Assembly (NCBI GenBank): GCA_021772565.1
Contig: JAJFLR010000076.1
Location: forward strand, 1 to 41,972
Origin: Opitutales bacterium
GTDB lineage: Bacteria; Verrucomicrobiota; Verrucomicrobiia; Opitutales; JAJFLR01
DNA length: 41,972 bases
Direction of reading: 5' to 3'
Position numbers and translations under genes: made by a program. Below are positions 5,821-41,972 of the stretch, piece by piece (position 1 is the first letter of the stretch; the number at the start of each line of letters is the position of its first letter). The notes beneath the pieces are model-generated. The model saw only the letters and a list, made by a program, of their open reading frames with translations. It was not told the origin of the DNA and made no database searches.

Positions 5821-5854
5821 TATAGCGTCTGCCATAATAAATTGGCAGATGTCG
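5821..5854. repeat. TATAGCRTCTGCCA motif with inverted half-site, copy 1
   Basis: TATAGCGTCTGCCATAATAA is followed by TTGGCAGATG. TCTGCCA and TGGCAGA form a seven-base stem. The same 14-base core recurs at 35904-35917 and, inverted, at 32176-32189, always between genes. Confidence 0.6.
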
Positions 5855-5912
5855 TTTTCAACTCGGCACAGAAATAAATCAGTGTATGCAATCAATAGAC
5901 GTAAGTCAGATA

Positions 5913-5999
5913 GATTGCCGCACTCTGCTTTCGCAGAGCTCGCAATGACAATTAGGTATCTACTTTGTCATCGCGAGGAGTAACACGACGTGGCGATCC
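5913..5999. repeat. REP/BIME-like dispersed palindromic repeat, copy 2
   Basis: It has the same layout as 406-492: GATTGCCGCACTC, CGCAATGACA, then TGTCATCGCGAGGAGTAACA and CGACGTGGCGATCC. The outer and inner halves are complementary. It differs from copy 1 at scattered positions, so the copies are not recent. Confidence 0.7.
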
Positions 6000-6298
6000 A
6001 TGACTTTTTGTAACCACCTACCTCAAAGAGTTAATGGTATTTCATATCGATTTGTAATAAATATTTTTGGTTAAGAATTTTCATCTCTCATTAACTCTTC
6101 TACGTAGGTATTTACACTTCATAATCTAAATGCTGTAAGTAATTTCAACAAAAATTAGAATATCATGACTTAATTCAGATACACGTCACAATTAGTTTTG
6201 TTAATATAAATAATGAGAATTGAAATATTTGGGCAATTTGAAACAACATTAAATCACCAGAACTTTAAATTATACAATATACAAAAATTAAAAAAATT

Positions 6299-27241: not shown

Positions 27242-28171
27242 CTATACAGATTTCAATAATGATTTAGCATGCCTCTTCATAACCTCAACTGGCGATTTTG
27301 TCTTCGTCCAAATCTCAAGTGCTTTTTCTCCCTGCCAGACAAGCATTGACAGTCCATCAGTACATTTTTGTCCCAGAAATTTAGCATCTTTAATCAACTG
27401 TGACTCGCCCGATTTATAGATCATGTCAAAAACCATAAGCTCACGACTTAGACTTTTTAAGTTAACAGGTGATGGATCTTCAGATTTGAGTCCCAAAGAT
27501 GTCGCATTTATTAAAATACCCTCTTTCGGTAAATTTTCTGGTAAATTTTCTTTTATGCTAAAACCTGTTATCTCACTACTTGAATAAAAAGACTTCAAAT
27601 CCTTAATTAAATTTGATAATCGATCCTGATTGCGATTCCCGATCCATAGAGATTTACATTGGCTATTTAAGCATTGGCTAGCGGCAGCTCTAGCGGCACC
27701 ACCGGCTCCAATCAAAATTATATTGGAGTCAACTAATCTGCCACCTAAATCAAATTTGATAGCTTGCTCAAGACCATAACCATCTGTATTATGGCCCGTA
27801 TAGCCACTAGATTCTTTCACAAGCGTGTTAGTGGCACCAATTATTTTCGCCTCTTTAGAAATGTTTTTGATAAGATTACAGGCGATAAATTTATGGGGTA
27901 TCGTAAGGTTTAATCCAATGAAGTTTTTTTGAAAAAACAAAGATAAAGCCAACTTCAAGTCTTCCGGGATGATATCAAATTTAAAATATTTCCATTTTTT
28001 AAAAAGATCGTTTGATTTTGAGAGTTCTGCCAATGCTGCATTATGAATTTGAGGACTAATTGAATGACTTACAGGATGCCCCAAAACTGCTAAGGATGGT
28101 TCTTTTCTAGACCAATGCTTAAGATCTTCAAGTGTGAATACTGTATCATCATCAGATATACATTTCGACAT
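27242..28171 (-). CDS. aroE: Shikimate dehydrogenase
   Basis: A 309-residue NADPH-dependent enzyme that reduces 3-dehydroshikimate to shikimate in aromatic amino acid synthesis. The substrate site is visible as GHPVSHSISPQIHNAAL, NLTIPHKF (catalytic Lys) and GHNTDGYGLEQA (catalytic Asp). The nucleotide fold is LIGAGGAARAAASQ, and the C-terminal MLVWQGEKALEIW is standard. There is an N-terminal extension of about 28 residues before the first strand (MSKCISDDDTVFTLEDLKHW), longer than in E. coli but still coherent. It is nine bases downstream of the SirB1-family gene and probably cotranscribed with it. Confidence 0.93.
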   Translation of the reverse strand: MSKCISDDDTVFTLEDLKHWSRKEPSLAVLGHPVSHSISPQIHNAALAELSKSNDLFKKWKYFKFDIIPEDLKLALSLFFQKNFIGLNLTIPHKFIACNLIKNISKEAKIIGATNTLVKESSGYTGHNTDGYGLEQAIKFDLGGRLVDSNIILIGAGGAARAAASQCLNSQCKSLWIGNRNQDRLSNLIKDLKSFYSSSEITGFSIKENLPENLPKEGILINATSLGLKSEDPSPVNLKSLSRELMVFDMIYKSGESQLIKDAKFLGQKCTDGLSMLVWQGEKALEIWTKTKSPVEVMKRHAKSLLKSV

Positions 28172-28180
28172 AAATTATCT

Positions 28181-29044
28181 TCAAGAATGTTTTCTATAAG
28201 TAGCAGCAAATTCTCTGGAAAACTCATTGAACTGCTTCGCACGTGCAGGATTATTTTTCAAAGTATATTGTCTCACTAAAACCCTACAGCACTGGCACAA
28301 TACATCTCCAACCGAAATTGGTGCTAAATATCCAATTTGCGGAAAATGATTATTGCTAGACAAAATTTCTTCGAGTTCCTCAAGAGTTCTAAACATTCCA
28401 TTTTCAAATGGATCAATATAGAAAGGAGTTTTATCCAAAAAACAGCCCACCAAAAACCTGCCAGGCATGCCGATTGGTTCTAATTCTAAACCACACCTTT
28501 GTGCGATAAGAATATATAGTATTGATAGTGAAATTGGTATCCCGGTACGTCTAACCAAAACATAATTTAAAAAGCTATTTAATGGGTCATTATAATTTTC
28601 AACATTACCCCTAAACCCATATTCATGATATAAAACTCTATTAATGATATGGCATGTCTCCCAAGCTGAACTTGGCGGATTAATCAACTCCATGCACCTG
28701 GAAGAAATTTCGTCGAGTTTTAAACAAACTTCTTTAGTTTCAAAATTGGGCGTTGCGATGCGACTAAGAAAGAGGCATCCTGTTTCCAATTCATAATTCA
28801 TTGACTGGATAAATTGAATAAACTCATCTTTGGGATCAGGTCCCTGTATCTCTTTTAGGATATTATTAGCAACATCACTTAATTTTCCCCTTTTGCTCAG
28901 AATAATGTTTTTTAAAAGCTGTATCCCAATAATATCGAGTCTCTTATATTCATTAATGAGAGCACCCCTTACAACAGGTGAATCATCATCTAGTAATTTA
29001 ACTAGTGATTGCTCATAATTGTCATCTATTTTTCGTAAAGCCAC
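28181..29044 (-). CDS. SirB1-family protein with transglutaminase-like core
   Basis: A 287-residue protein of the SirB1 family (transglutaminase-like core 2). Residues 1-75 resemble HEAT-like helices (SPVVRGALINEYKRLDIIGI). The family block begins near residue 90 (LETGCLFLSRIATPNFE). Key segments are CHIINRVLYHEYGFRGN, FLNYVLVRRTGIPISLSILY and GMPGRFLVGC, then FYIDPFENG. The classic catalytic Cys of transglutaminases is not placed here, so the fold may be non-enzymatic. The molecular role is not established. The gene has a GTG start, follows yggS by about 170 bases and precedes aroE by nine. Confidence 0.85.
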   Translation of the reverse strand: MALRKIDDNYEQSLVKLLDDDSPVVRGALINEYKRLDIIGIQLLKNIILSKRGKLSDVANNILKEIQGPDPKDEFIQFIQSMNYELETGCLFLSRIATPNFETKEVCLKLDEISSRCMELINPPSSAWETCHIINRVLYHEYGFRGNVENYNDPLNSFLNYVLVRRTGIPISLSILYILIAQRCGLELEPIGMPGRFLVGCFLDKTPFYIDPFENGMFRTLEELEEILSSNNHFPQIGYLAPISVGDVLCQCCRVLVRQYTLKNNPARAKQFNEFSREFAATYRKHS

Positions 29045-29216: not shown

Positions 29217-29924
29217 CTAAGCATAAACCCTATCACCAAATAAAGCTGTGCCAATTCGGATCATCGTACTACCGGCCTTTATTGCTTCATCCATATCGGA
29301 GGTCATTCCCATTGATAAAACAGGTAGTGCAACTTGAAATTTTTCCTCTAATTGATCCCTTAGAACCTTCAATTTTTTAAAAGAATCTATTGCACAAAAA
29401 TTATCACACTCAATTGGTGCTACAGTCATTAAACCCTCAACCTTTAGATATCTAGATTTTAATGCAGCTTCCAATAAATACGGTGCATTATTTACTGTAG
29501 CTCCATACTTAGAAGGATCTTCGCCTGAATTAATTTGAATTAAAATCGGCATACTTTTGTTTATTTGCTCCAATTGCTTAGAAAGTGATTTTACTAACTT
29601 TATTCTATCAACTGTTTGGATACGATCAAATAATTCAACCGCGCGTTTAGTTTTATTACTTTGCAGGTGTCCGATTAATTCCCATTTAACAGAACTTTTT
29701 ACCAAAGGTTTTTTTGATTCAGTCTCTTGAATTCTATTTTCACCAATTGCTTTCAATCCATATTGAGAAACAAATTCAACAGCAAATGGTCCATGATTTT
29801 TTGTAACCGGCAAAAGTGTTATATCTTCTGGATTTCGTTTACACTCCTTACAAATTTTTATAATTCTTTTTTCAATTTCAGTAATATTTTTCAGAAAATT
29901 GTTATAATCCATATCCATAAACAA
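29217..29924 (-). CDS. yggS: YggS-family PLP homeostasis protein
   Basis: A 235-residue PLP-binding protein of the YggS/PROSC family, which buffers free pyridoxal phosphate and affects amino acid and keto acid pools. The cofactor lysine is K42 in LLPVTKNHG. Later family blocks are KAIGENRIQE, WELIGHLQSNK, LIQINSGEDPSKYG, GLMTVAP and SMGMTSDMDEAI, then GSTMIRIGTALFG, which binds phosphate. The N-terminus has three closely spaced in-frame Met codons (MFMDMDYNNF), so the exact start is uncertain. It diverges from the LysR gene across 75 bases that must hold both promoters. Confidence 0.93.
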   Translation of the reverse strand: MFMDMDYNNFLKNITEIEKRIIKICKECKRNPEDITLLPVTKNHGPFAVEFVSQYGLKAIGENRIQETESKKPLVKSSVKWELIGHLQSNKTKRAVELFDRIQTVDRIKLVKSLSKQLEQINKSMPILIQINSGEDPSKYGATVNNAPYLLEAALKSRYLKVEGLMTVAPIECDNFCAIDSFKKLKVLRDQLEEKFQVALPVLSMGMTSDMDEAIKAGSTMIRIGTALFGDRVYA

Positions 29925-29999: not shown

Positions 30000-30908
30000 A
30001 TGCACATAGAAAATTTTAAAATATTTATAGATTTAGTTGAGAAAAAAAGTTTCTCTAAAGCTGCTAAACTAAACAAAATCACTCAATCTGCGGTTAGTCA
30101 GCAAATTAAAGTTTTAGAAAAACATTATAATATTACTGTCATTGATAGATCTCATAAAAACTTCAGTATGACTTCTGAGGGTGAAAAATTATTTGAAAGT
30201 GCTAGAGAAATTATCAATAAATATGAAAAGATGTCTGCTGAAATACTTGCATTGAAAGATGTTGTATGTGGCACAATTCATATTTCTACAATTTACAGTA
30301 TCGGCCTACACGAATTACCCCCCTACATAAAAAACTTTTTGAGGGATTACCCAACAGTTAATGTAAAAGTTGAATACAGAAGATCCAACCTTGTTTATGA
30401 TGATATCTTGGGTAAATCAGCAGATCTCGGAATCGTGGCATTTCCAATTAAACTAAAACAATTAGAAATTTTACCATTTAGAGAAGATAAATTATCACTC
30501 GTTTGCAGCCCGGAACACCGACTTGCCAATAAAAAAGAAATTGATATCAAAGAGATTAAAGACCAAAAATTTATTAGTTTTGATAAAGATATCCCAACTC
30601 GAAAAGCTATCGATCTAATTTTCAAGGAAAAGAAGATTTCTGTCGAAACAGTTATGGAGTTCGATAATGTCGAAACAATAAAACGCGCTGTTGAAATAAA
30701 TGCCGGTGTATCAATTATTCCGGAAATCACTGCTTCACAAGAAGTAAATCTTGGGGTTCTTAAAACTGTAAAAATCAAAGGGAAAAAATTTAAGCGGCCA
30801 CTAGCTATAATCTATTTAAAAGGCCGTCACCTTACTCCTGCCATGCATAAATTTATTGGTATGCTGATGGGTAAACCATTTGTTAGACCAGATAAAAGTT
30901 TAAATTAA
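30000..30908 (+). CDS. LysR-family transcriptional regulator
   Basis: A 302-residue regulator. The N-terminal winged helix-turn-helix (FIDLVEKKSFSKAAKLNKIT then QSAVSQQIKVLEKHYN) is the LysR signature. Residues 90-295 form the periplasmic-binding-protein-like effector domain (GTIHISTIYSIGLHELPPY). The effector is unknown, though the domain style is that of the CysB/CbbR/CysL branch. LysR proteins often control a divergent neighbour, so yggS and the 75-base gap are the obvious candidates for regulation. The gene is AT-rich with no ribosome binding site, and is complete. Confidence 0.9.
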   Translation: MHIENFKIFIDLVEKKSFSKAAKLNKITQSAVSQQIKVLEKHYNITVIDRSHKNFSMTSEGEKLFESAREIINKYEKMSAEILALKDVVCGTIHISTIYSIGLHELPPYIKNFLRDYPTVNVKVEYRRSNLVYDDILGKSADLGIVAFPIKLKQLEILPFREDKLSLVCSPEHRLANKKEIDIKEIKDQKFISFDKDIPTRKAIDLIFKEKKISVETVMEFDNVETIKRAVEINAGVSIIPEITASQEVNLGVLKTVKIKGKKFKRPLAIIYLKGRHLTPAMHKFIGMLMGKPFVRPDKSLN

Positions 30909-30922
30909 CAAATCAAACTACG

Positions 30923-30970
30923 CTGATAGAAGTTTATTTCCCCAATTGAATAATCAATGCATCGTTGTTA
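30923..30970. repeat. Flank repeat A, copy 1
   Basis: A 48-base block around TTCCCCAATTGAATAAT and TCGTTGTTA that matches 32038-32085 at roughly 40 of 48 positions. Read on the minus strand it encodes NNDALIIQLGK followed by a stop, close to the NNEALIIQSGKK read from copy 2. It lies about 20 bases beyond the PEP-CTERM stop codon. Confidence 0.7.
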
Positions 30971-30987
30971 GGCATCTCTTCATTCGA

Positions 30988-31668
30988 TTACTTTTCTATT
31001 CTTCTGATAGCAATTAAAAGACCAACAAGCCCCATTAACAACCCGGAAGTAGGTTCGGGAATAGTAGTTATAAACCCATTGGCATTTGGTCTGTCATTAC
31101 TCGAAAAATTATTTGGAAAATTCAGCCCAGGTGTGGTAAAAAGAAAAGCGGGAGAATCATAACTGGCTATTCCAGAATTTAGCGGTCCAAAAGAAATTCC
31201 GCTAGAACTTGTAAAAGCATAGTTATCTCCATTTGTCTGAGAGCCAATTCGATAAGTAGTATTGCCAGATAATATAACAGGCGTAATGCTAACCATTCTC
31301 CAAGCATCAACCAAGGAAGCAACAGTACCCGCAGAAACAGTAGCACTGGCTACCAATGTCCCATTGTCTTCCCAAATACCGACTTCATGGGAAACGTTGA
31401 GACCGTCAAGATTATGGTCCCAGTGCCCTAATTGTGTAAGCAAAACCGATTCTGAACCTACTGTAAACTGAAACCCTTGTGTGCCTACAACAGACGCGTT
31501 TCCAAGAGATTCTCCTGAAAAACTAGTTAGAATAAGTGAGGGATTAATTGCCGCACTTAGATAGTTGCCTGTAATGAAGAATATAGTTGTATACAAAATG
31601 ATGTAATTAATGAAATTGTTGTTCAAAGTATGAAATCGAACTTTTTTGAGATGTGATGTAATACTCAT
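30988..31668 (-). CDS. Exported PEP-CTERM protein, beta-rich
   Basis: A 226-residue protein with an export signal (hydrophobic segment INYIILYTTIFFITG after a basic start, cleavage near LSA) and a complete PEP-CTERM tail: TIPEPTSGLLMGLVGLLIAI, then RRIEK. The mature middle (FQFTVGSESVLLTQLGHWDH, GLNVSHEVGIWEDNGTLVAS, GNTTYRIGSQTNGDNYAF) is the beta-sandwich type often found in PEP-CTERM proteins and similar to DUF4082-like domains. It is presumably displayed on the outer surface or in the exopolysaccharide layer. Its upstream region (31741-31821) is duplicated upstream of the next minus-strand unit. Confidence 0.85.
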   Translation of the reverse strand: MSITSHLKKVRFHTLNNNFINYIILYTTIFFITGNYLSAAINPSLILTSFSGESLGNASVVGTQGFQFTVGSESVLLTQLGHWDHNLDGLNVSHEVGIWEDNGTLVASATVSAGTVASLVDAWRMVSITPVILSGNTTYRIGSQTNGDNYAFTSSSGISFGPLNSGIASYDSPAFLFTTPGLNFPNNFSSNDRPNANGFITTIPEPTSGLLMGLVGLLIAIRRIEK

Positions 31669-31740
31669 AATTATTTCCTTTTCTTTGTTATTAATAGTTT
31701 ATGATTTAGTATTTTAATCAAACATGGATATTGGATGGAA

Positions 31741-31821
31741 AATTTCCCATGTCAATTAATACTAAGTATAAAAAATGTGGAAAAATGTAGCTGTCAAATG
31801 ATAAGATAAAAATAATTTATT
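31741..31821 (-). promoter_or_regulatory. Flank repeat B, copy 1, with a candidate minus-strand promoter
   Basis: Nearly identical to 33482-33561, with about 46 bases without mismatch. On the minus strand it contains TTGACA (31792-31797) and, 18 bases downstream, TTTTAT as a weak -10 box. This would direct the PEP-CTERM gene starting at 31668. Confidence 0.55.
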
Positions 31822-32196
31822 AGTTTCCATCCAGTACAATATTAAAACATATAAAATGGAAAATAGACGCAAGTGAAGGAATGGTGAATGAAATTCCTAA
31901 ATGTAACTTCCCTCAATGAAATTGTAGGGACATAACGATATTGGTTTACACTCACGTTATGTAAAAAAATTTAGCTGACATAAATAAAATGCCCTGTTCT
32001 TACATATACCTGGAAACGTTAAGTTAATTAGATAACTCTGAAAAATGTTTTCTTCCCCGATTGAATAATTAATGCTTCGTTGTTAAAATTTGTAGCATAG
32101 ACAATAAATCAGCCTGCAAATTAATCTTTGCGGTAAACGCGAATGAGCGAGCCGCTCATCCCTGCTATTTTATTTTGGCAGATGCTATATACTCAA
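31822..32196. other. Intergenic stretch with flank repeat A copy 2, a hairpin and a dispersed motif
   Basis: No gene. It contains repeat A at 32038-32085, the perfect hairpin ATGAGCG-AGC-CGCTCAT at 32143-32159 (possibly a structure downstream of the minus-strand hydrolase, though without a T-run) and an inverted copy of TATAGCATCTGCCA at 32176-32189. Confidence 0.6.
32038..32085. repeat. Flank repeat A, copy 2
   Basis: Matches 30923-30970. On the minus strand it reads YATNFNNEALIIQSGKK and continues TFFRVI to a stop at 32024-32026, with an in-frame stop a few codons upstream of this stretch. It looks like the orphaned C-terminus of a lost protein. Confidence 0.65.
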
Positions 32197-32964
32197 CTAG
32201 ATATTTTGACGAATAAAATTCTGTGTTATCCTCACAAACTCTTCAGAATTTTCCCAGGGGACCCTGTGTGTTGCATTTGGAACGATCGCATGATTTACCA
32301 ATGGACAGGCGCGTTCAAGTTTACGGCCAATTTCACAATACTTCGTATCTTGCTCTCCAGAGACAAAAAGTATTGGGAGCGTATGTATTTTAGAGAGAGC
32401 TGGCAAGAGATCCTCTTGACGACCTTTGGAAAAAACGTCGAAAAATCTAGAAATTTTCTGGCGAGAAAAATTACACTCCTCTCTTGGAATTGTATTCGGG
32501 CGGCTTCCAAACACCGAAAGGCTGTCCCATTCATTTAAAAGTTCGGTCCAAGATTCACTGAGAAATCTCTCCCCCCATTTCTTATCCAGCAAAAGCTGTT
32601 GGGCACGACCTTCCTTATCACTAATCCCCGGATCAGCACCAACTACAATTGCGCCATTCCACAAAGAAGGTCGCTCTATAATCGAATGTAGAGCTAGGCG
32701 TCCACCGAGAGAGTAGCCAACTAAAAATTGGGGTATCGTACTTGAGAAATGCGCAACACGGGAACAAAAGTCATCCGTCCAAGATTGAAAACGATCAGCA
32801 GATGTGTCCCACAAGTTTTCGAATTCATGCTCAAAACTCCATCCATTCTCTCCTGATTTTTCAAAAGCAATTGCTCTAGAAATATCTAACCAAACGTTCG
32901 AATTTTGAAGATTACCGTGCAGGTAGTAAATTCTTGCACGTTGGGATGACTTAATGGCTCTCAT
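32197..32964 (-). CDS. Alpha/beta hydrolase of the MenH type
   Basis: A 255-residue alpha/beta hydrolase. YYLHGNLQNSNVW supplies the oxyanion region, FLVGYSLGGRLALHSI the nucleophile elbow with Ser in GYSLGGR, and NATHRVPWENSEEF the catalytic His. Asp is likely in SGEQDTKYCEI. The GYSLGGR elbow followed by GAIVVGADPGISDKEGR is the pattern of MenH (SHCHC synthase, a step in menaquinone synthesis). The protein lacks the HGF start of E. coli MenH, and no other men genes are present, so a different substrate is possible. It is second in a minus-strand pair after the small membrane protein, enclosed by flank repeats A and B. Confidence 0.75.
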   Translation of the reverse strand: MRAIKSSQRARIYYLHGNLQNSNVWLDISRAIAFEKSGENGWSFEHEFENLWDTSADRFQSWTDDFCSRVAHFSSTIPQFLVGYSLGGRLALHSIIERPSLWNGAIVVGADPGISDKEGRAQQLLLDKKWGERFLSESWTELLNEWDSLSVFGSRPNTIPREECNFSRQKISRFFDVFSKGRQEDLLPALSKIHTLPILFVSGEQDTKYCEIGRKLERACPLVNHAIVPNATHRVPWENSEEFVRITQNFIRQNI

Positions 32965-33030
32965 AAGAATGAGTAGTTTGACGAATTATAACGTCCTAGT
33001 GAGACGCAGGACTTCTTCCCGTTGTCTCAT

Positions 33031-33441
33031 CTAGCTGACAGTGCTGGCTTTAGGTTGGAGGTTTACGAAGTTTATCACGTCTTCAATAGTGTAAACTTTC
33101 CCAATCATCGGATTTTCTTCAAATTCGATGGATCTGTTAGTTTTTTTGCAGATTTCTGAGATGGCATCTTCAAGGTCATAGTCACAACACCCAAATTCTT
33201 CGACATTATCATTTTTTCGGTAGGGTATCTTCTTTTCTCCCATAGACCACCACATTTCGAATGGTTCCGTTGTCGCGCGAACAATAGATAAATCGATTTT
33301 TCTGTAATCGAGTGATCGAACAAAAGTGCAGATAGATTCTCCTATTCTGTCTTCGTAAATCTTCAGTTTTTTAATTCGTTCGAAAACGATGAGAAGAGCG
33401 TAGATTCCGATGAAAATTGAGATAATTACGAGAACCGTCAT
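33031..33441 (-). CDS. Small protein with one N-terminal membrane helix, unknown function
   Basis: A 136-residue protein. Residues 2-20 form a hydrophobic helix (VLVIISIFIGIYALLIVF), followed by a basic linker and a soluble domain of about 105 residues. No named domain is recognised. The C-terminal part (EEFGCCDYDLEDAISEICKK, then GKVYTIEDVINFVN) has the helix spacing of acyl carrier-like proteins but without the DSL serine, so that likeness may be only of fold. Start ATG at 33441, just downstream of flank repeat B copy 2, which would provide its promoter. It is likely cotranscribed with the MenH-like gene. Confidence 0.6.
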   Translation of the reverse strand: MTVLVIISIFIGIYALLIVFERIKKLKIYEDRIGESICTFVRSLDYRKIDLSIVRATTEPFEMWWSMGEKKIPYRKNDNVEEFGCCDYDLEDAISEICKKTNRSIEFEENPMIGKVYTIEDVINFVNLQPKASTVS

Positions 33442-33481
33442 TTCATTTCTATATTTGTACTACAGTGTTATTAGCTGGAAT

Positions 33482-33561
33482 AATTTCTATGGAAATTAAT
33501 ATTAAGGATAAAAAAGTGGAAAAATGTAGCTGTCAAATGATAAGATAAAAATAATTTATTA
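33482..33561 (-). promoter_or_regulatory. Flank repeat B, copy 2, with a candidate minus-strand promoter
   Basis: Duplicate of 31741-31821. On the minus strand TTGACA (33531-33536) is followed after 17 bases by TTTTAT, about 40 to 75 bases before the ATG at 33441. A one-base difference in the spacer separates it from copy 1. Confidence 0.55.
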
Positions 33562-33718
33562 ACTACTGTCAGGATTTGTTTATCAATGATGGAGCGCATT
33601 TAGCGTTTGAGTCTTGTTTGAGGCGTGTGAAATGTTTGGCTGGATTTTGGAAGGTTATTGTATGATGACTAATCACTTCAATCTAGTGATCCACACTTCA
33701 AAAAGGAAATTTGGTCTA

Positions 33719-33861
33719 TGGAATGAAAAAGAAATAAAGCAGCTAAGAAAAAAATTATTAGGAGAAGAACATAAAAATGAAGAAAAACATTAGAAAAAAA
33801 ACAAACACAGAAGTCTGTATAATACTGCTTGATTTTATAGGAAAATTTGGACTTAACCCAT
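33719..33861 (+). pseudogene. 3'-end remnant of an IS256-family element
   Basis: Closely matches the last 140 or so bases of the intact element at 38159-39629: the end of the transposase frame (AATAAAGCAGCTAAGAAAAA, then GAAGTCTGTATAATACTGCT) and the terminal region TGATTTTATAGGAAAAT followed by GGACTTAACC. It carries small deletions and substitutions, so it is an old copy. No left end or transposase body is present. Confidence 0.85.
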
Positions 33862-33917: not shown

Positions 33918-35822
33918 ATGGCTCTCCTTACATACAGAAATCTTACCGTCTCCTTTGGCGGTCCACGTCTACTCAACGACGCAGACCTCACTGTCGAAAA
34001 GCGTGTGCGCATCAGTCTGATTGGGCGCAATGGTGAGGGTAAATCCACACTGCTGCGCATTATTGGCGGGCAAATCAAACCCGACGCCGGCGAGATCGAA
34101 GCCATCCCGGGGCTACGCATCGGTAAGCTCGACCAAGAAGTCCCGGCCCACCTCGAAGGCACCGTCTTCGAGATCGTTGCCGACGGCCTGGGGATAGCCG
34201 CCAAGACAGTGGCGGAATACCACCGCCTCGCTCACGAATACGCGGAAAATCCGGACGATGCCGTCGCAGAACGCCTGGACCATCTTCAAGAAGAACTCAA
34301 CCGCACTGACGGCTGGTCGCTGGAACACAAAGTCGAAAGTATCCTCAACCGTGTCGAGCTCGACGGTGACATGCTCTTTTCCGCACTTTCCGGTGGTAAC
34401 AAGCGCCGCGCCCTACTCGCCCGTGCGCTCACAATGGAGCCACACATTCTACTGCTCGATGAGCCGACCAATCACCTGGACATCCCCGGCATCCGTTGGC
34501 TGGAAGAATTCCTGCGCAAGTCTGATATTTCTCTGCTGTTCGTCTCGCACGATCGTGCCTTCATCCGCCGTGTGGCAAACCGTATACTCGACCTAGACCG
34601 TGGCCAGCTCACCTCATGGAATTGCGACTACGAGACTTACCTCACTCGCAAGGCCGACCTGCTCGCCGGCGAGGCTAAGCAACAATCAGTCTTCGATAAA
34701 AAGCTCGCCGAGGAAGAGGTCTGGATTCGCAAGGGCATTCAGGCCCGTCGCACTCGCAACGAAGGCCGCGTGCGCTCACTGCAGAAAATGCGTGTCGAGC
34801 GTGCCAAGCGCCGCAACATCATCGGCACGTCCAACCTCAATCTTAACGAGGGGCAACTGTCCGGGCGTAAAGTCATCACCGTCGATAACATCAGCTACGA
34901 CTGGGGCAACAAGCCACTGATCCAAAACTTCTCCACCATCATCTGGCGTGGTGACAAAATCGGCATCATCGGCCTCAATGGCTCGGGCAAGACCACCCTA
35001 ATCAACCTGCTCCTCGAAAAACTAAAGCCACAGCAAGGCACCGTCGCTCCCGGCACCAAGCTCGATGTCGCCTATTTCGACCAACACCGTGCGCAGCTTG
35101 ATGAAACACTTTCTGTGGCCGAAAATGTGCATCCTTACGGTGAGATGGTCTCCATCAATGGTAAGCAGCGCCACATCATCACCTATCTGCAGGACTTCCT
35201 ATTTACGCCTCACACCTCACGCTCACCGATTATCAGGCTATCAGGTGGAGAGCGTGCGCGCCTTCTTTTAGCGCGTCTGTTCTTGCAACCAGCCAATGTG
35301 CTCGTACTGGATGAGCCGACCAACGACCTGGACATTGAAACCGTCGAGCTACTCGAAGAGCGGTTACTCGACTACGACGGTACTTTACTCCTCGTCAGCC
35401 ACGACCGTAGCTTCCTCGAAAATGTCGTCACTAGCACTATCGCTCTTGAAGGCGCCGGAATTGTTGCCGAATACGACGGAGGCTGTGCAGACTGGCTTGT
35501 GCAATACGAAGCCCGAAAAGCGGCAGAGGTGCAGACCGCCAAAGCCCCCCCACCCGTTGCAAAAGTTGCCGAGCCAGCACCAGCTTCGGCAAAGCCCAAT
35601 CGCAATTTGACCAATAAAGAGCGCGAAGCGATAAAAACTTTGCCGGGCCTAATCGCGAAGCTAGAAGCCGAGTACGCCACTCTGAGCGAAAAGATGGCCT
35701 CAGCCGAATATTATCAAGACAAGAGCAGCGACCTATCTGGCGACGCAAAACGCTTGGAACAACTCGAGGCCGACACATTGGAAGCCTACGAACAGTGGGA
35801 ATCGCTGACAGCGAAGGAATGA
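33918..35822 (+). CDS. uup: ABC-F family ATPase, Uup type
   Basis: A 634-residue protein with two ABC ATPase domains and no membrane part. Domain 1 has GRNGEGKST, signature LSGGNKRRA and Walker [14 protein letters not shown]. Domain 2 has [18 protein letters not shown] and [13 protein letters not shown] linker rich in Arg and Lys lies between them. A C-terminal coiled coil of about 70 residues ([19 protein letters not shown] onward) marks the Uup subgroup. ABC-F proteins act on the ribosome, and Uup also affects transposon excision and branched DNA. Base composition is far richer in G+C than in its neighbours and the codon choice differs, so recent transfer is likely. The 3' end is duplicated at 37381-37446. 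Confidence 0.92.
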
Positions 35823-35841
35823 AGTAAGTCTTGCTCCAAAC

Positions 35842-35901
35842 CCGACTTCAATACTTCTTCTTAAAAAACGGCAAATTTTGAAGAAGAAGTGTCGAAGTCG
35901 G
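35842..35901. repeat. Long imperfect hairpin downstream of uup
   Basis: Left arm 35842-35862 (CCGACTTCAATACTTCTTC and two more T) and right arm 35881-35901 (AAGAAGAAGTGTCGAAGTCG plus G) are complementary at 19 of 21 positions with an 18-base loop. It lies 20 bases after the uup stop and may serve as a terminator for both convergent genes, although no T-run follows. The motif TATAGCATCTGCCA follows at 35904. Confidence 0.75.
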
Positions 35902-35948
35902 TTTATAGCATCTGCCATCATTTTGAAAACGTGGGGCTAGATTCCGGG

Positions 35949-37157
35949 TCAAACTAATTGGCTTAATAATGTTTGCGCTGATACGATTACCGGTGTCGTT
36001 ACTGAAAAAACAGATTTATTAACATACGGCAGGTCTTTCACTAGTTGAAAGGCATGATCGGTTTTTAAATGGTTGTGGAAACGCAGTAAATGCTTACTGA
36101 GCGGCCTATCCGCAGATAACTTTACTTCAACCAAAAACCAAGGCTTCTCTTCCTGTGTTACCAGAAAATCCACTTCTCGCTTCTCTTTGTCTCTGATGAA
36201 GTAGAGCTCAAATTTCCCCAAGCCGATATCAGACCAAAACTGCGTCGCCTTGAGTAAGTGACAAGCGATCATGTTTTCAAAGCGTGCTCCCGAGTCTTTG
36301 ACACAACTCCAGTCCCATAGATATAATTTCGGTTCTTTTAAGAGCGAACGGGTAATATTTTTTTGATACGGTCTTAACCGGAAACAATAGTAAAAGGATT
36401 CAAGCGTATCAATCCATCGCCGAATGGTATCGACACTGACACGAACTTTTTTTGCCAATGAACTATAACTGGTTAATTGAGTCGCTTGCCCTGCAATCAA
36501 ACGACTGAGAATTTCCAATTGCGCAATTTCGTGAACACGACCGGAATCTCTAATTTCTTCGCGCAGTAAAAGATCGTGCCGATTTCTCTGCCAACGATTA
36601 TAAAAACGTTTGTTCTTTTTAATATAAGGCTCGGGGAAACCACCGTAATCCAATAGCCGGGAAAATGTTTTTTTGGTTGGCTTTTTCGGTGACCGCACCG
36701 GCATTTCCGGCACATTCCAGCGAGTCGTCTCAGCCAGACCATACGGATGTATGTGATAGTGAAAATACCGGCCTGACATACTATCGCCGCCTCTTTTAAA
36801 AATATCCAATTGTGAACTTCCGGTTACAATTATTCGAGTGGACTCAAAATACTTGTCATAAAAACCTTTTAGAAAATTTTTCCAATGCTTGTATTTGTGA
36901 ATTTCATCAAAAACTATGGTCGTTCTTTGTTTCGATAATCTATTTAATTTACAATAATCGGCAATCACCTGAGTCCCGGATAATAATCGTTCTCGATCAT
37001 CAGGGTCATCCCAATTGAGATAATGAAAACTTCCCTGCAATTTTTTAGCACTTAAAGCGACTGTCGTTTTTCCGACCTGGCGAGGGCCGGACAGAAAGCA
37101 CATTTTATCAGTCATTTTAAAATGATCGATAATCAATGAATTATAAACACGATTCAT
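35949..37157 (-). CDS. AAA-type ATPase with DUF4143 C-terminus
   Basis: A 402-residue protein. Walker A is GPRQVGKTT at 24-32 and Walker B is IVFDEIHKYKHWKNFLKG, with VTGSSQLDIF as sensor region and LSGxxxxF-like MSGRYFHYHI following. Residues 195-400 match DUF4143: a winged-helix part (YSSLAKKVRVSVDTIRRWID) and a C-terminal block with FYFIRDKEKREVDFLV and WFLVEVKLS. That end is an (E)VDFL...E-x-K pattern resembling the PD-(D/E)XK nuclease fold. These ATPases are widespread and of unknown function, often near toxin-antitoxin genes. The gene is complete, and its start is overlain by two tandem palindromes. Confidence 0.88.
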   Translation of the reverse strand: MNRVYNSLIIDHFKMTDKMCFLSGPRQVGKTTVALSAKKLQGSFHYLNWDDPDDRERLLSGTQVIADYCKLNRLSKQRTTIVFDEIHKYKHWKNFLKGFYDKYFESTRIIVTGSSQLDIFKRGGDSMSGRYFHYHIHPYGLAETTRWNVPEMPVRSPKKPTKKTFSRLLDYGGFPEPYIKKNKRFYNRWQRNRHDLLLREEIRDSGRVHEIAQLEILSRLIAGQATQLTSYSSLAKKVRVSVDTIRRWIDTLESFYYCFRLRPYQKNITRSLLKEPKLYLWDWSCVKDSGARFENMIACHLLKATQFWSDIGLGKFELYFIRDKEKREVDFLVTQEEKPWFLVEVKLSADRPLSKHLLRFHNHLKTDHAFQLVKDLPYVNKSVFSVTTPVIVSAQTLLSQLV

Positions 37158-37161
37158 AGCC

Positions 37162-37223
37162 GACTATTTTTATTAGTATCGTAAAACAGTCAAGACTATT
37201 TTCTTATATGTCGTAAAATAGTC
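37162..37223 (-). promoter_or_regulatory. Two tandem operator-like palindromes at the DUF4143 gene start
   Basis: Two 30-base units at 37162-37191 and 37194-37223, 32 bases apart. Both begin GACTATTTT and end in GTAAAAYAGTC. In the second the arms GACTATTTT and AAAATAGTC are perfectly complementary. In the first one arm base differs. They lie four bases upstream of the ATG at 37157, where a repressor would block transcription or translation. Confidence 0.65.
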
Positions 37224-37380
37224 GCTATAGCTTTGTCAGTACGTATGAACGAGCCAATCGAACGTTGAAAGAAAACATCCATGATTAATTTTTCTAAACG
37301 AAAACATTTATAGCAATCGGTATATATCTTAACAGATGTTATGATTTCTTATTGATTTCTTATTGATTTCAGATTGCAAA

Positions 37381-37446
37381 AAACTCGAAGCAGACACGAT
37401 GGAAGCCTACGAACAGTGGGAATCGCTGACAGCGAAAAAAGAGTAA
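37381..37446 (+). pseudogene. Displaced second copy of the uup 3' end
   Basis: Encodes [20 protein letters not shown] then E and stop, against [20 protein letters not shown] at the end of the intact uup. A run of 37 bases is identical (37400-37436 versus 35779-35815). Nothing of uup precedes it; the upstream bases are an 11-base tandem repeat (TGATTTCTTAT) at 37342-37374. It is a direct repeat that, with the uup end, encloses the DUF4143 gene. Confidence 0.85.
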
Positions 37447-37517
37447 AAATAACATCGGATTTATTTTGTATAGACGTTAGTATTTATATTTTGCGTTCGA
37501 CGCATTTTTTGTTTTCC

Positions 37518-37778
37518 CTAAAGTATTTTCAACAACCGATCGTATTCTTTATGATGACCAATCCAAAACCACAAAACTCCTTCTGAAACTTCAATTCCAA
37601 TAGCCCTATAGGATAATCCAATTCGAACAGTCCTATGATTTCTAACCTTCTTGAAATTCAAAGAAGGATGAGATAAATCTCTTTTAAGCATTCTATAATT
37701 AGCTTTTGCTAACTGCTGAATATCTACCGGCAACTTATCATGATACTGCCAAAATTTCTTAGTTGCTAAATGCTTCAC
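37518..37778 (-). CDS. RelE/ParE-superfamily toxin
   Basis: A protein of about 86 residues from the GTG at 37778, one base after the antitoxin stop. A TTG further upstream (37814) would add 12 residues and overlap the antitoxin. Visible blocks are FWQYHDKLPVDIQQLAKANY, HPSLNFKKVRNHRTVRIGLS, YRAIGIEVSEGVLWFWIG and HHKEYDRLL, the pattern of a ParE/HigB-like branch in which the strand ends W.WIG.H.EYD. RelE-fold toxins cleave mRNA on the ribosome and ParE-type ones act on gyrase, and this branch is not clearly either. The partner lies directly upstream. Confidence 0.85.
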   Translation of the reverse strand: MKHLATKKFWQYHDKLPVDIQQLAKANYRMLKRDLSHPSLNFKKVRNHRTVRIGLSYRAIGIEVSEGVLWFWIGHHKEYDRLLKIL

Positions 37779-37779
37779 T

Positions 37780-37983
37780 TCACAGCTCTTTAACAGAACC
37801 TTGAGAATATTCAACCAATGCCTCCTCTACTAAAGAACTTAACTTACCAGACTTAATATCACGTTCGATTTGTTCATCCCATTGATCTGAATCATGCACA
37901 GAAAACCAATCTCTAAATTTCTTATAGTCATCTGGAGGTAAACTATTTACGGCATTTTTTAATTCTTCTACTTGCATTATCAC
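37780..37983 (-). CDS. Antitoxin of the RelE/ParE-type pair
   Basis: A 67-residue protein with an N-terminal helical segment (VEELKNAVNSLPPDDYKKFR), the motif DWFSVHDSDQWDEQIERDIK and SGKLSSLVEEALVEYSQG at the C-terminus. This is typical of small antitoxins preceding HPSL-type RelE/ParE toxins, where the last segment covers the toxin active site. It shows no obvious DNA-binding domain, so regulation may depend on the complex. Its stop is separated from the toxin GTG by one base, implying coupled translation. Confidence 0.82.
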   Translation of the reverse strand: MIMQVEELKNAVNSLPPDDYKKFRDWFSVHDSDQWDEQIERDIKSGKLSSLVEEALVEYSQGSVKEL

Positions 37984-38042
37984 TCATCAAGTTATTCAAC
38001 ATTCTAAATTTTTCAACTATTTTATTTTTACTAGTCGATCGG

Positions 38043-38145
38043 GGGTGCAAATAAAAGTGCGGGGACTAAGCAGCTAAATTGTTCCAATAATTATTCCATA
38101 GGCCATTAGCTCTTAAAGCTCTAGCTGCAGCCATAGCATTGGCAT
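38043..38145. repeat. Left 103-bp arm of a perfect inverted repeat around the IS256 element
   Basis: Exact reverse complement of 39630-39732 over all 103 bases. The outer end is GGGTGCAAATAAAAGTGCGG. On the minus strand the arm contains a frame ending ARALRANGLWNNYWNNLAA and a stop, which looks like the C-terminus of another transposase. Confidence 0.92.
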
Positions 38146-38158
38146 TATGTATATTCCA

Positions 38159-39629
38159 GGTTCCGTCCATAAACTCCTGTAAAATTGAAAGAGGAAATCG
38201 AAAAAGATTCGATTTCCCCTTCCGTAGAAACAGTTAATAATTTAAAGAAAAATATCACTAAATCATTAAATCAAAAAACCATTAATAAAATTATGCTAAA
38301 AAAGAAAATATCACCAAGTGAAAACAAGAAGCAAGAACTCAATGAACTGCTAAGAGGAAAACACAGAACAGAAAATGGAGAACAGATGCTGAGTTCATTG
38401 ATACAATTATCTGTTGAACACATCATCCAGGAAGGGCTGGAAATGGAACAGTCGCAGGCGTTAGGCAGGCAGCGTTATGAAAGAGGTTCAAATGAAAATG
38501 AACCGAAAGGATGTCGCAATGGCTATGAACCCGGAAGGCTGCGCACAGCCGAAGGAATACTCGAAATACAAAAGCCACAGATAAAAGGGCTGGAACATCC
38601 TTATCGCTCAAAACTGTGGGATCAACTAAAGGGAATCAGTAGTCAGCTAAAAGATCTGGTAATAGAAATGTATACAAACGGGATGAGCACCCGAGACATC
38701 GAAGAAAGTCTACAACGAACGTTTGGAAGATTCGTATTATCGAAAAGCAGCGTAAGCGTACTTACGGAGCAGTTACACGAAGAATATGAACAATTTGGCA
38801 ATCGAGATTTAAGCGGTTATGAGATAGCTTATTTATTCATAGACACGGTATACGAACCGTTGCGCCGGTATGGGAGCCGCACCGGAGTGACCTGCTGTTG
38901 GGCAATATTAATAGACGGAACGAAAGCCCTGATAGACATGACAATGATGAACACCGAAAGCTATGAAAGCAGTATGGACTTTCTACGAGGGATGGTCAAA
39001 CGAGGCTTGGCAATACCGCTAACGATAACAACAGACGGAGCGCCCGGACCAATAAAAGCAATAGAAGCGATGTGGCCGAAAAGCAAACGAGTAAGATGCT
39101 GGTTTCACAAAATGCAAAATCTGCAAAATAAAGTACCGCCCCAGATGTGGCCGGAGTTTAAGACGCTGGTCGAAGATATGCGAGATGCCCCTGACTGCAA
39201 AGAAGGCAAAAAGCGTATGGACAAAATTGTAGAAACCTACAGCGCAGAATATCCGGATGCGATCCGATGTCTGCAAGATGACAGTGAAGCCAGTTTGAAT
39301 CATTTATACGTACCGAAACGACATCGCCAAAATGTACGAACAACGAACCTTGTAGAACGAACGTTTGTAGAAGAAAGACGCCGGACAAAAACGATACCGC
39401 ATCTATGGACGGAAAAAAGTCTAACGAAGTTGGTATATGCGGTATTAATCCGAGTCAGTGAAAGATGGAGTCGGAGACAATACAGCGAATGGGAAGAAGC
39501 AGCAATAAAGCAGCTAAGAAAAAAAATATTAGGAGAAGAAAATAAAAAAGAAGAAAAAAATGAAAGGAAATCAAAACGTAGAAGTCTGTATAATGCTGCT
39601 TGATTTTACAGGAAAATTAGGACTTGACC
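38159..39629 (+). mobile_element. Complete IS256-family insertion sequence
   Basis: About 1.47 kb with imperfect terminal inverted repeats of roughly 30 bases: GGTTCCGTCCATAAACTCCT then GTAAAATTGA on the left, against GGTCAAGTCCTAATTTTCCT then GTAAAATCAA on the right. The GTCC six bases in and the GTAAAA block are usual for IS256 ends. No 8-9 base target duplication is seen (TATATTCCA against ATGCCAATG). The flanking DNA forms 103-bp inverted arms instead. Confidence 0.85.
38185..39603 (+). CDS. IS256-family transposase
   Basis: A 472-residue mutator-type DDE transposase. D220 lies in YLFIDTVYEPLRR, D284 in TITTDGAPGPIKAIE and E391 in LVERTFVEERRRTK, the three acidic catalytic residues, with the KRVRCWFHKMQNLQNKVP block between. 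The N-terminal half contains the helix-turn-helix (LVIEMYTNGMSTRDIEESLQ). The TTG start lies 26 bases inside the left terminal repeat, and an ATG further in (38293) is an alternative. The frame is uninterrupted and all catalytic residues are present, so the element could be active. Confidence 0.92.
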   Translation: MKEEIEKDSISPSVETVNNLKKNITKSLNQKTINKIMLKKKISPSENKKQELNELLRGKHRTENGEQMLSSLIQLSVEHIIQEGLEMEQSQALGRQRYERGSNENEPKGCRNGYEPGRLRTAEGILEIQKPQIKGLEHPYRSKLWDQLKGISSQLKDLVIEMYTNGMSTRDIEESLQRTFGRFVLSKSSVSVLTEQLHEEYEQFGNRDLSGYEIAYLFIDTVYEPLRRYGSRTGVTCCWAILIDGTKALIDMTMMNTESYESSMDFLRGMVKRGLAIPLTITTDGAPGPIKAIEAMWPKSKRVRCWFHKMQNLQNKVPPQMWPEFKTLVEDMRDAPDCKEGKKRMDKIVETYSAEYPDAIRCLQDDSEASLNHLYVPKRHRQNVRTTNLVERTFVEERRRTKTIPHLWTEKSLTKLVYAVLIRVSERWSRRQYSEWEEAAIKQLRKKILGEENKKEEKNERKSKRRSLYNAA

Positions 39630-39732
39630 ATGCCAATGCTATGGCTGCAGCTAGAGCTTTAAGAGCTAATGGCCTATGGAATAATTATTGGAACAATTTA
39701 GCTGCTTAGTCCCCGCACTTTTATTTGCACCC
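39630..39732. repeat. Right 103-bp arm of the perfect inverted repeat
   Basis: Reverse complement of 38043-38145 without mismatch, starting at the last base of the insertion sequence. Read on the plus strand it encodes NAMAAARALRANGLWNNYW and the rest of the tail, ending at a TAG. Confidence 0.92.
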
Positions 39733-39793
39733 TTGTATTCGGGATTACCGATTGACAAGTTCAAGTTAATTCAATAATTTTACGAAAATTAAA

Positions 39794-40045
39794 ATGAAAG
39801 ACTCTTCCCATTTTGAAGACATGCTGAACGAAAGAGGCATTGATGCAAAATGGGTTGATCGCACAATCAATGATCCGGATTACGAAGAGACTTATGATGA
39901 CGGAACTCATCATTTCATAAAACAAATATCAGAATTTGGAAATCGATGGCTTCGAATAATTGTTAATGATAAAGACGATCCAAAAATACGAATAACTGCC
40001 TTTTTTGACCGTCGATTAATGAAAAAATATGAGAGTAAAAGTTGA
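39794..40045 (+). CDS. DUF4258-type small protein, probable toxin
   Basis: An 83-residue protein: HFEDMLNERGIDAKWVDRTI, then DDGTHHFIKQISEFGNRWLR and KIRITAFFDRRLMKKYESK. The H..(E)RM.ERGI..EWV start and the FGNRWLR...FFDRR ending are those of the DUF4258 family, which is generally paired with DUF2283. Its fold is thought to resemble BrnT/RelE ribonucleases, so an RNase role is likely but inferred. It overlaps the following gene by 17 bases. A TTGACA at 39752 could be a -35 box, without a convincing -10. Confidence 0.82.
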   Translation: MKDSSHFEDMLNERGIDAKWVDRTINDPDYEETYDDGTHHFIKQISEFGNRWLRIIVNDKDDPKIRITAFFDRRLMKKYESKS

Positions 40046-40229
40046 TAAGAAAAGTGATGCCCTATATTTTCGACTAGATGAAAATAAAATCGAGGGGTCG
40101 GAAGAAGTCAGACCAGGAATTATTCTTGATTTTGATAAAAATGATCAAGTAGTAGGTATTGAATTTCTTCATATTTCATCACGCGCTACACCTGAGGAAC
40201 TTTCATCCATTCAATTCCAGACAGTATAA
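40029..40229 (+). CDS. DUF2283-family protein, probable antitoxin
   Basis: A 66-residue protein, MRVKVDKKSDALYFRLDENK followed by VRPGIILDFDKNDQVVGIEF and LHISSRATPEEL. This is the compact beta-rich DUF2283 domain, usually encoded directly after a DUF4258 gene. Pair order here is toxin-like first and DUF2283 second, with overlapping frames, as is usual for this pair. It lacks a DNA-binding domain. Confidence 0.85.
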   Translation: MRVKVDKKSDALYFRLDENKIEGSEEVRPGIILDFDKNDQVVGIEFLHISSRATPEELSSIQFQTV

Positions 40230-40286
40230 ATATAATTTGACTTCAATAAAATTTACCCGGCCTGATAAGAAGTTCCCGATAGCACA

Positions 40287-41000
40287 GTGTCTCAATATAA
40301 TATCAATAAACAGCTAGACGGCAAAAGCGTTCCCGTTACTATAATGGTCGATCATCGAGAAAATGCCGAGGTGCTTCTTAAAGATTTAAAGGAACATCAT
40401 TATCTGGTTGTGGAAAAAACGCATCTCGAAATTGGCGATTATAAAATTTTTCCGGATATAATCCTCGAGCGAAAGACAGTAGATGATTTTTGTTTGTCAA
40501 TAGTTGACGGACGACTTTTTCGACAGGCATTTCGATTGGTCCAACTGACCGAGAATCCAATATTAATCATAGAAGGCAGCACATTTGCCAATCGCAATCA
40601 CAAAGTCTCAATAGAATCAATCAAAGGCGCCCTCGTCACTTTGGCTCAAACTTATCGTTTACCGGTAATTCGAAGTAGTAACCAAAAAGATAGTGCTTGG
40701 TACATTAACCTCCTTTGCCGACAACGTAAACGAATCGGTCAGAACTCGGGAGTGTTGTCTAGCTACCGACCCAAAAGATTAAACAAACAAAAAGAATACC
40801 TCTTACGAAGTTTACCCGGTGTCGGTCCAAAACTGGCAAAATCCATACTCAGACAATTTGAGACCATTGAGAATGTGGCTCACGCAACACAAAAAGATTT
40901 AGCAGAAATTGATGGCTTGGGTGAGAAAAAATCAGAAAAAATATATCAGGTATTGCACGAATCACAATCTGAGTATCCGGAAATAAACCGAGGCGAATGA
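40287..41000 (+). CDS. Compact ERCC4 (XPF/MUS81-type) nuclease with helix-hairpin-helix tail
   Basis: A 237-residue protein. Residues 15-150 are an ERCC4 nuclease domain: TIMVDHREN, then the complete catalytic signature GD at 50-51, nine residues, ERK at 61-63, TVD and D67. Residues 170-230 form a tandem helix-hairpin-helix domain (YLLRSLPGVGPKLAKSIL, LAEIDGLGEKKSEKIYQVL). This is the catalytic half of archaeal XPF/Hef and eukaryotic MUS81 without the helicase. Such nucleases cut branched or flapped DNA. Bacterial stand-alone members are uncommon. The start is a GTG at 40287 with no ribosome binding site. Its neighbours are a TA pair and a reverse transcriptase fragment. Confidence 0.88.
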   Translation: MSQYNINKQLDGKSVPVTIMVDHRENAEVLLKDLKEHHYLVVEKTHLEIGDYKIFPDIILERKTVDDFCLSIVDGRLFRQAFRLVQLTENPILIIEGSTFANRNHKVSIESIKGALVTLAQTYRLPVIRSSNQKDSAWYINLLCRQRKRIGQNSGVLSSYRPKRLNKQKEYLLRSLPGVGPKLAKSILRQFETIENVAHATQKDLAEIDGLGEKKSEKIYQVLHESQSEYPEINRGE

Positions 41001-41180
41001 TTCGACATCTTTCAAATGAATAGGAATGGGGTAAGATGACATGGGAGTTGTCAGCAGGAATAGACCTAGATACTGATAAGTTGAGATTCATTTTGTTCCA
41101 TCAGTTCTTCTATGTGGTTAATATTTTCAACTTAACTTTTGTTTCTAAATCCTTATGATTTTTAATTCCGTTAGTTATAA

Positions 41181-41945
41181 GATCATCAGTCTGACCCTTT
41201 TTTATTTCTCGATGCCGACATCAAGGGATTTTTCGATAACATCCCCCACCGTCTCATCGTCGATACCGTTGCTGAAGAAATTGCCGATGGGAATATTCTC
41301 TGCCTTATTGAGAAATTTCTCGCCGCGGCGGTCATGGACAACGGTGTGTTTAAACCGACTAACATCGGCACACCACAAGGCGGGGTGCTTTCACCCTTAC
41401 TTGCCAACATTGTCCTGAATAAATTGGACAAGCAACTCGATCAAGCAGGCTTTCGCTTTGTGCGTTATGCCGACGACTTCATCGTGCTTACCAAAAATCG
41501 CTGTCAAGCGGAAGAGGCTCTGGCATTTGTCAGTCGTATTATGCAGTCCCTCTCCTTGCAATTAAGCCAGGAGAAAACGCAGATTACCACATATCGGAAG
41601 GGATATTCCTTTCTCGGTTTCGTAATCTCGTCACGGTCTCGCAGCATACGTCCCAAATCCATTGAGAAGTTCACAGATAAGATCAAGGAAATTACCCGAA
41701 GGAAACACAATTTCGATGCGGAAGTTATCGAAAAGCTCAACCGAGTCATCAGAGGCACTGCACGGTATTTTGGCACGAAGTTCTCAACCTGTCGAAGTCG
41801 ATTTATCTATCTGGACGCATGGATACGCAGGAGACTGCGCTGCATGAAGTTCAAGAGGAAAAGTCACAGAGACAATTACCGAATGACCGTTGCCACATTC
41901 AATAAACTCGGGCTAGAGAAAATGGTAAACTATTATCAATATTAG
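41181..41945 (+). pseudogene. 5'-truncated group II intron-type reverse transcriptase/maturase
   Basis: The frame is open from 41181, but recognisable protein begins at 41208 (LDADIKGFFDNIPH) with no start codon in range. Following blocks are GTPQGGVLSPLLANIVLNKL (RT4), FVRYADDFIVL with the YADD active site (RT5), YSFLGFVIS and a maturase-like tail (IRRRLRCMKFKRK). The first 120 to 150 residues of a normal RT are missing, so this is a broken gene. No intron domain V/VI is seen in the few bases left. It is distinctly richer in G+C than neighbouring DNA. A shorter ATG start at 41334 would be non-functional. Confidence 0.88.
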
Positions 41946-41972
41946 CTATGAAAGAACGTTTGAAGATTCCTC

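Follow-up and report, generated by a model that had tools for sequence, protein, structure and literature searches.

Displaced 3′ ends of tyrS mark a probable tandem-accretion island in an Opitutales genome

Why should two neighbouring units that carry unrelated genes be bounded by the same pair of short repeats? The locus lies in the window, the whole stretch of 41,972 nt analysed here (contig JAJFLR010000076.1 of an Opitutales bacterium, below C98), which belongs to a draft genome of 124 contigs with 95% completeness. A self-BLAST of the window recovered both repeat pairs, at about the positions given by an earlier, sequence-only reading of this DNA. A (30911-30970) and A′ (32026-32085) share 78% identity over 60 nt, with 82% in the best 51 nt (E 4.6e-7), and B (31729-31822) and B′ (33469-33561) share 88% over 94 nt (E 1.3e-26), with a single mismatch in the innermost 52 nt; for a 30-nt piece of B, the number of chance matches expected in the window is 0. 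The A repeats are real but longer than was first described: the homology of A extends from about 30911 to 30986 and reaches the stop codon of the PEP-CTERM gene, while A′ is homologous to tyrS, the gene for tyrosyl-tRNA synthetase, over 32005-32091. The genes between the repeats are indeed unrelated, namely a PEP-CTERM/DUF4082 protein in one unit and a MenH-like hydrolase together with a 136-aa protein (no Pfam match above cut-off, no NCBIfam match) in the other. When the two units were compared by BLASTN and TBLASTX, convincing alignment was limited to A and B, and no residual homology of the unit bodies was detected.

The identity of A follows from its occurrence in the genome. The degenerate pattern NNxxLIIQxGK has exactly three matches in 3.57 Mb, at A, at A′ and on a second contig (C62), and the reversed control has 0. 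The match on C62 belongs to a tyrS piece of 78 codons, of which it is the tail; this piece ends KFNNEELIIQSGKRTFFRVI and lies 3.5 kb downstream of an intact tyrS of 393 aa that carries a substituted end, KPESEIIIQSGKRRFFRIR. A′ (tail T1) reads NNEALIIQSGKKTFFRVI and is open to its stop, as is the fragment on C62 (tail T2); the two are 87% identical over 87 bp, including about 20 nt past the stop, and A′ thus carries the tyrS tail plus some 3′ flank. At the protein level A′ matches tyrS with E 3.5e-4. In a codon alignment A (tail T0) reads NNDALIIQLGK-stop-TSISVV-stop, the same tail with an in-frame stop. No A-type tail occurs elsewhere in the genome, and the three share one orientation if the contigs join as proposed below. 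We regard A and A′ as displaced 3′ ends of tyrS with very little doubt. The sequence-only reading had called for an intact protein ending NNEALIIQSGKKTFFRVI downstream of a B-type promoter; this check succeeded in that the tail is that of tyrosyl-tRNA synthetase, although the resident gene has no B upstream. Two other identities considered for A, a promoter partner and the tail of an uncharacterised protein, were rejected, as A corresponds to the last ~20 codons of tyrS.

Two related Opitutales genomes show the tyrS-LysR locus uninterrupted. One of them, the Verrucomicrobia MAG L094, has peroxiredoxin, tyrS, LysR, YggS, transglutaminase-like and AroE genes in this order, with LysR running towards tyrS at a distance of 28 bp from the stop of tyrS; LysR adjoins tyrS in the other (G041) too, and the DNA of the two is 77.5% identical across this stretch. 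In the target genome, peroxiredoxin and tyrS are located on C62. The orthologues of LysR, YggS (29217-29924), the transglutaminase-like protein (28181-29044) and AroE (27242-28171) lie in the left side of the window in the order and relative orientation of L094, and A is found directly beside the LysR stop. Because tyrS stands tail to tail with LysR in both relatives, A is the original end of tyrS, still in its place, and therefore everything between the working tyrS and A is inserted DNA. This insertion amounts to ~14.8 kb, the exact length assuming that C62 and C98 join. The right ends of these contigs overlap by exactly 22 nt, an overlap that was sought only after tails were known on both, and the same 22 nt also end contigs C96 and C6. 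A group II-type reverse transcriptase repeat (window 41208-41972, 5′-truncated; C96 7900-8664; the ends of C62 and C6) creates a two-by-two assembly ambiguity. Since this repeat is present twice, the 22-nt overlap alone permits two pairings, and it is synteny that favours C62 with C98. The features of the island on the window contig are listed in the table.

Table. Features of the proposed island on the window contig, with the inserts (E1, E2) and tyrS tails (T0, T1) to which they are assigned.
Feature	Position	Strand	Basis
LysR-family regulator, ancestral right neighbour of tyrS, distal island flank	30000..30908	+	Pfam LysR_substrate, HTH_1; synteny in L094, G041
A (T0), decayed original tyrS 3′ end	30911..30986	-	pattern match with one mismatch; codon alignment; conserved place beside LysR
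Core-like stretch just past PEP-CTERM stop	~30971-30986	-	core similarity equalled by 9/5000 random stretches
PEP-CTERM/DUF4082 protein, 226 aa, cargo of E1	30988..31668	-	Pfam PF13313, TIGR02595
B, upstream of PEP-CTERM gene; proposed left-end region of E1	31729..31822	-	88% to B′; two genome copies
E1 spacer between B and T1	31823..32004	.	unique in genome, no other significant match
A′ (T1), second displaced tyrS 3′ end with the element's flank past the stop	32005..32091	-	87%/87 bp to C62 fragment
Probable internally deleted MITE, terminal repeat TAGCATCTGCCA.., TA target, between MenH stop and A′	32093..32187	.	
MenH-like alpha/beta hydrolase, cargo of E2	32197..32964	-	TIGR03695 E 1.3e-38, below cut-off
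136-aa protein, N-terminal hydrophobic segment, cargo of E2	33031..33441	-	open frame
B′, proposed remnant of E2 left-end region	33469..33561	-	self-BLAST match to B
E2 debris: REP-associated transposase-like motif (by eye) joined to IS256 transposase 3′ fragment	33614..33858	+	
Rest of E2: ABC-F ATPase, AAA ATPase, IS256, Xpf/Hef-like nuclease, 5′-truncated group II-type reverse transcriptase	33918..41972	.	contig-end overlap with C62

We propose that foreign DNA probably entered at the 3′ end of tyrS several times in succession and left A and A′ behind, the inserts together forming a tandem-accretion island. In such a history at least three integrations would have followed one another at the tyrS 3′ end, each pushing the previous tail outward. 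An incoming element would bring a substitute tyrS tail and recombine at the pre-tail core near AATCCGAGTGAGGAGATAA, so that tyrS would stay functional throughout. With the tail of the working gene named T3, the resulting order would be tyrS-T3-E3-T2-E2-T1(A′)-E1-T0(A)-LysR. The state of the tails is consistent with this order, as A carries an in-frame stop whereas A′ and the C62 fragment are open; because the tails are short, their relative ages were judged from position and decay rather than from a tree.

The newest insert, E3, comprises 3,474 bp between 67-bp perfect direct repeats. It encodes an antitoxin-like protein of an addiction module (TIGR02574) and, after it, a small protein, and it carries a PEP-CTERM-like gene; no homology was found between the PEP-CTERM proteins of E1 and E3. 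The repeat located 3,474 bp downstream of the working tyrS is a copy of the pre-tail region of that gene and is followed by an A-type tail. Over the ~200 bp before the tail, the resident tyrS and the C62 fragment are 94% identical, differing at 11 of 199 positions (8 of the 11 at third codon positions), and the last 67 positions are the same. At the tails the identity drops abruptly to ~60%, with 21 of 54 coding positions different, as it would at an attachment core.

Could all this have arisen without any mobile element, if the tyrS 3′ region was duplicated locally in tandem and the copies then decayed and received unrelated genes? The three tail copies do lie in one orientation near tyrS, in a region full of MITE, IS and reverse transcriptase debris. 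However, the 21 differences between the resident and fragment tails are far above the level just upstream, and the boundary between the two levels is abrupt. Duplication alone would also not replace the tail of a working gene, and T1 and T2 have a common flank that is absent from the native end. We consider this explanation improbable.

E1 (~1.1 kb) consists of B and the PEP-CTERM gene. E2, read on the tyrS strand, contains half a MITE, the reverse transcriptase, the Xpf/Hef-like nuclease, IS256, the AAA ATPase, ABC-F, debris, B′, the 136-aa protein and MenH; its transposon, MITE and reverse transcriptase would be later gains, and such later transposon insertions may also have separated B′ from T2. 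The core that follows the PEP-CTERM stop of E1 is short and diverged, and its similarity is above chance (see table). On the MenH side of E2 the core is weak, being equalled by 203 of 5000 random stretches, and the MITE remnant sits in this junction, with its right-end terminal repeat at 32169-32187 and just TAGCAT as its left end. The sequence upstream of the tail differs at the three insert-to-tail junctions, which are formed by the PEP-CTERM end, the MenH end and the tyrS fragment, and at the E3 junction ~135 bp of extra tyrS-like sequence lie upstream of the 67-bp repeat.

Several of these features count against the accretion history. Unless deletions followed, a single attP family should not give differing upstream junctions; the MenH-side core is weak, and the extra tyrS-like sequence at E3 looks more like homologous recombination. 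To these may be added the lack of a recombinase gene within the island, the lack of a convincing tail duplication in 80 loci of relatives (see below), and the fact that the assembly permits a second pairing besides C62-C98. The main rival is homologous recombination of the Campbell type, in which circles or plasmids carrying the 3′ part of a donor tyrS and its downstream DNA enter by single crossovers and no dedicated integrase is required; it applies chiefly to E3, where ~200 bp of tyrS precede the tail at the distal end. The 94% identity of those ~200 bp to the resident gene, with most differences at third positions, is as expected of a donor orthologue, and an island without a recombinase agrees with it as well. 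On the other hand, no tyrS homology precedes the tail or core at A and A′, where it sets in directly behind the cargo stop, and random crossovers would hardly strike the same few codons three times. The donor would, moreover, have to match the recipient at ~94% up to one point and at ~60% beyond it. Campbell-type integration thus appears unlikely to us, though it is to be taken seriously, and we retain successive insertion at an attachment core as the preferred history.

A number of features within and around E2 deserve mention in their own right. The ABC-F ATPase gene (33918-35822) has 56% GC amid 34.5% GC, which suggests a foreign origin. The IS256-family transposase (38043-39732) lies between perfect inverted repeats of 103 bp, a length that greatly exceeds that of usual IS ends; the 3′ end of this copy (39489-39629) is 84% identical to 33718-33858 in the debris. 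The Xpf/Hef-like nuclease (40287-41000) is of archaeal type (ERCC4 plus helix-hairpin-helix) in a bacterial host. The truncated reverse transcriptase runs into the end of the window contig, where it overlaps C62. A family of MITE-like elements has terminal repeats TAGCATCTGCCATAATAA and duplicates its TA target; complete copies measure 271-334 bp, and members lie at L004 5652-5767, window 5823-6008, window 32093-32187 and over 30 further genomic positions. The MenH-like gene, although below cut-off, matches MenH better than any other gene of the genome, so a step of the menaquinone pathway may be island cargo.

What, then, is B? It has two copies in the genome, B and B′, and is absent beside the third tail on C62. 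No match was found in viral contigs, phages or plasmids, nor a convincing one in 51 genomes of the same order, and no Rfam family was found in the window or the C62 end. B had been called promoter-like, and it does contain a TTGACA hexamer; a sigma-70 consensus scan, however, placed no site inside it, and shuffled sequence contains promoter-like sites at least as often as the region does, which leaves that description unsupported. The divergence of B and B′ (12%) is of like size to that of T1 and T2 (14/84), so B fits a left-end region common to E1 and E2. The tails that head the two units, A′ and the C62 fragment, also have the first ~22 nt past the stop in common: of 30 positions beyond it, 22 are identical between T1 and T2 and 8 between T0 and T2. 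Such a pattern is expected if T0 is the chromosomal end and related elements brought T1 and T2. E1 and E2 thus appear to be sister elements with a common left end, and E3 a different element.

The sequence-only reading had explained the arrangement by a tandemly duplicated ancestral gene, with B as promoter and A as tail, whose bodies were replaced. The order B, genes, A is the same in both units. However, A belongs to tyrS, and no B lies upstream of the resident tyrS; A sits in its native place next to LysR, the tail on C62 has no B, and a promoter role of B is not supported. As tyrS synteny already contradicts it, we hold this explanation to be scarcely tenable. The other option of that reading, a cassette with conserved ends, was partly right in outline, in that each unit ends at a tyrS tail and both units carry B. 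A and B do occur independently of one another, but as displaced gene ends and not as ordinary dispersed repeats.

Which enzyme might have carried out the insertions? Neither C62 nor C98 encodes a tyrosine recombinase (PF00589; nine matches in the genome, all on other contigs), and the genome has no resolvase-type serine recombinase (PF00239), so the integrase of its own that characterizes an IME or ICE was not found. Because the island holds no recombinase gene, we infer the integration enzyme; the chances seem even that it was a site-specific recombinase, either working from another place or lost in the meantime. In 80 loci of relatives with long flanks (L078-L157) no convincing duplication of the tyrS tail was found, and a scan for recombinase motifs returned a single Xer-like motif; the L039-L067 loci are less informative owing to short flanks and a computed gene end that is wrong for reverse-strand matches. 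No tyrosine recombinase lies within 10 kb of tyrS in same-order relatives among the matches listed, and the literature searched gave no relevant report of tyrS as an integration site. Separately, in an Opitutales MAG (L103 8973-9257) the tyrS frame has an in-frame insertion of ~95 codons just before the S4 domain.

A bolder version, to which we give little credence, would make the tyrS 3′ end the attachment site of a recombinase-less cassette system moved in trans by a chromosomal recombinase, with units of ~1-3.5 kb in which a left end of tail and B is joined to a gene or gene pair ending right at the core. Every capture would then also swap the C-terminus of an essential synthetase, and truly recombinase-free cassettes would give Opitutales a way to shuffle their surface-protein (PEP-CTERM) genes. 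The successive-insertion history as such turns an odd repeat pair into a readable record, in which the end of an essential gene was apparently replaced at least three times and the old ends serve as boundary markers. It also shows that where unrelated genes are separated by short “conserved tails”, these can be the displaced ends of a housekeeping gene located far away.

Among known systems, integron gene cassettes are likewise small units of a gene and an attachment site stacked in one orientation. They differ from the tyrS island, where no attC-like RYYYAAC..GTTRRRY pair 40-150 nt apart was found on either strand of 30850-32249, which covers A and A′, and where neither contig, having no tyrosine recombinase, encodes an integron integrase. 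Phage 21 and e14 in the icd gene of Escherichia coli supply an alternative C-terminus of an essential protein and displace the old 3′ end, but each is one intact (pro)phage that brings its own integrase, and neither forms a serial stack. The replacement of the C-terminus is alike in the tyrS island, which would instead be a serial stack and encodes no integrase. Streptococcal ICEs are integrated in the 3′ ends of lysS, guaA, rpsI and rpmG, with direct repeats of 12-54 bp, and encode tyrosine integrases and conjugation modules (PMC4701971). They resemble the tyrS inserts in entering the 3′ end of a housekeeping gene, an aminoacyl-tRNA synthetase (lysS) included; here the target is tyrS, and inserts of 1-11 kb encode neither an integrase nor a conjugation module. 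The ssrA-specific islands of Dehalococcoides are arranged in tandem downstream of an essential single-copy gene, the tmRNA gene, are bounded by repeats of the gene's 3′ end (a 20-bp direct repeat) and carry variable cargo; their serine recombinase is DsiB, and an integration module is present in just 16 of 31 (PMC3146451). The tyrS island is unlike them in its protein-coding target, its longer tails and the absence of a recombinase among its genes, and like them in its stacked inserts bounded by 3′-end repeats of the target gene. Insertion at gene 3′ ends is a known route of bacterial genome growth, to which the tyrS target and the small, recombinase-less inserts add a new aspect.
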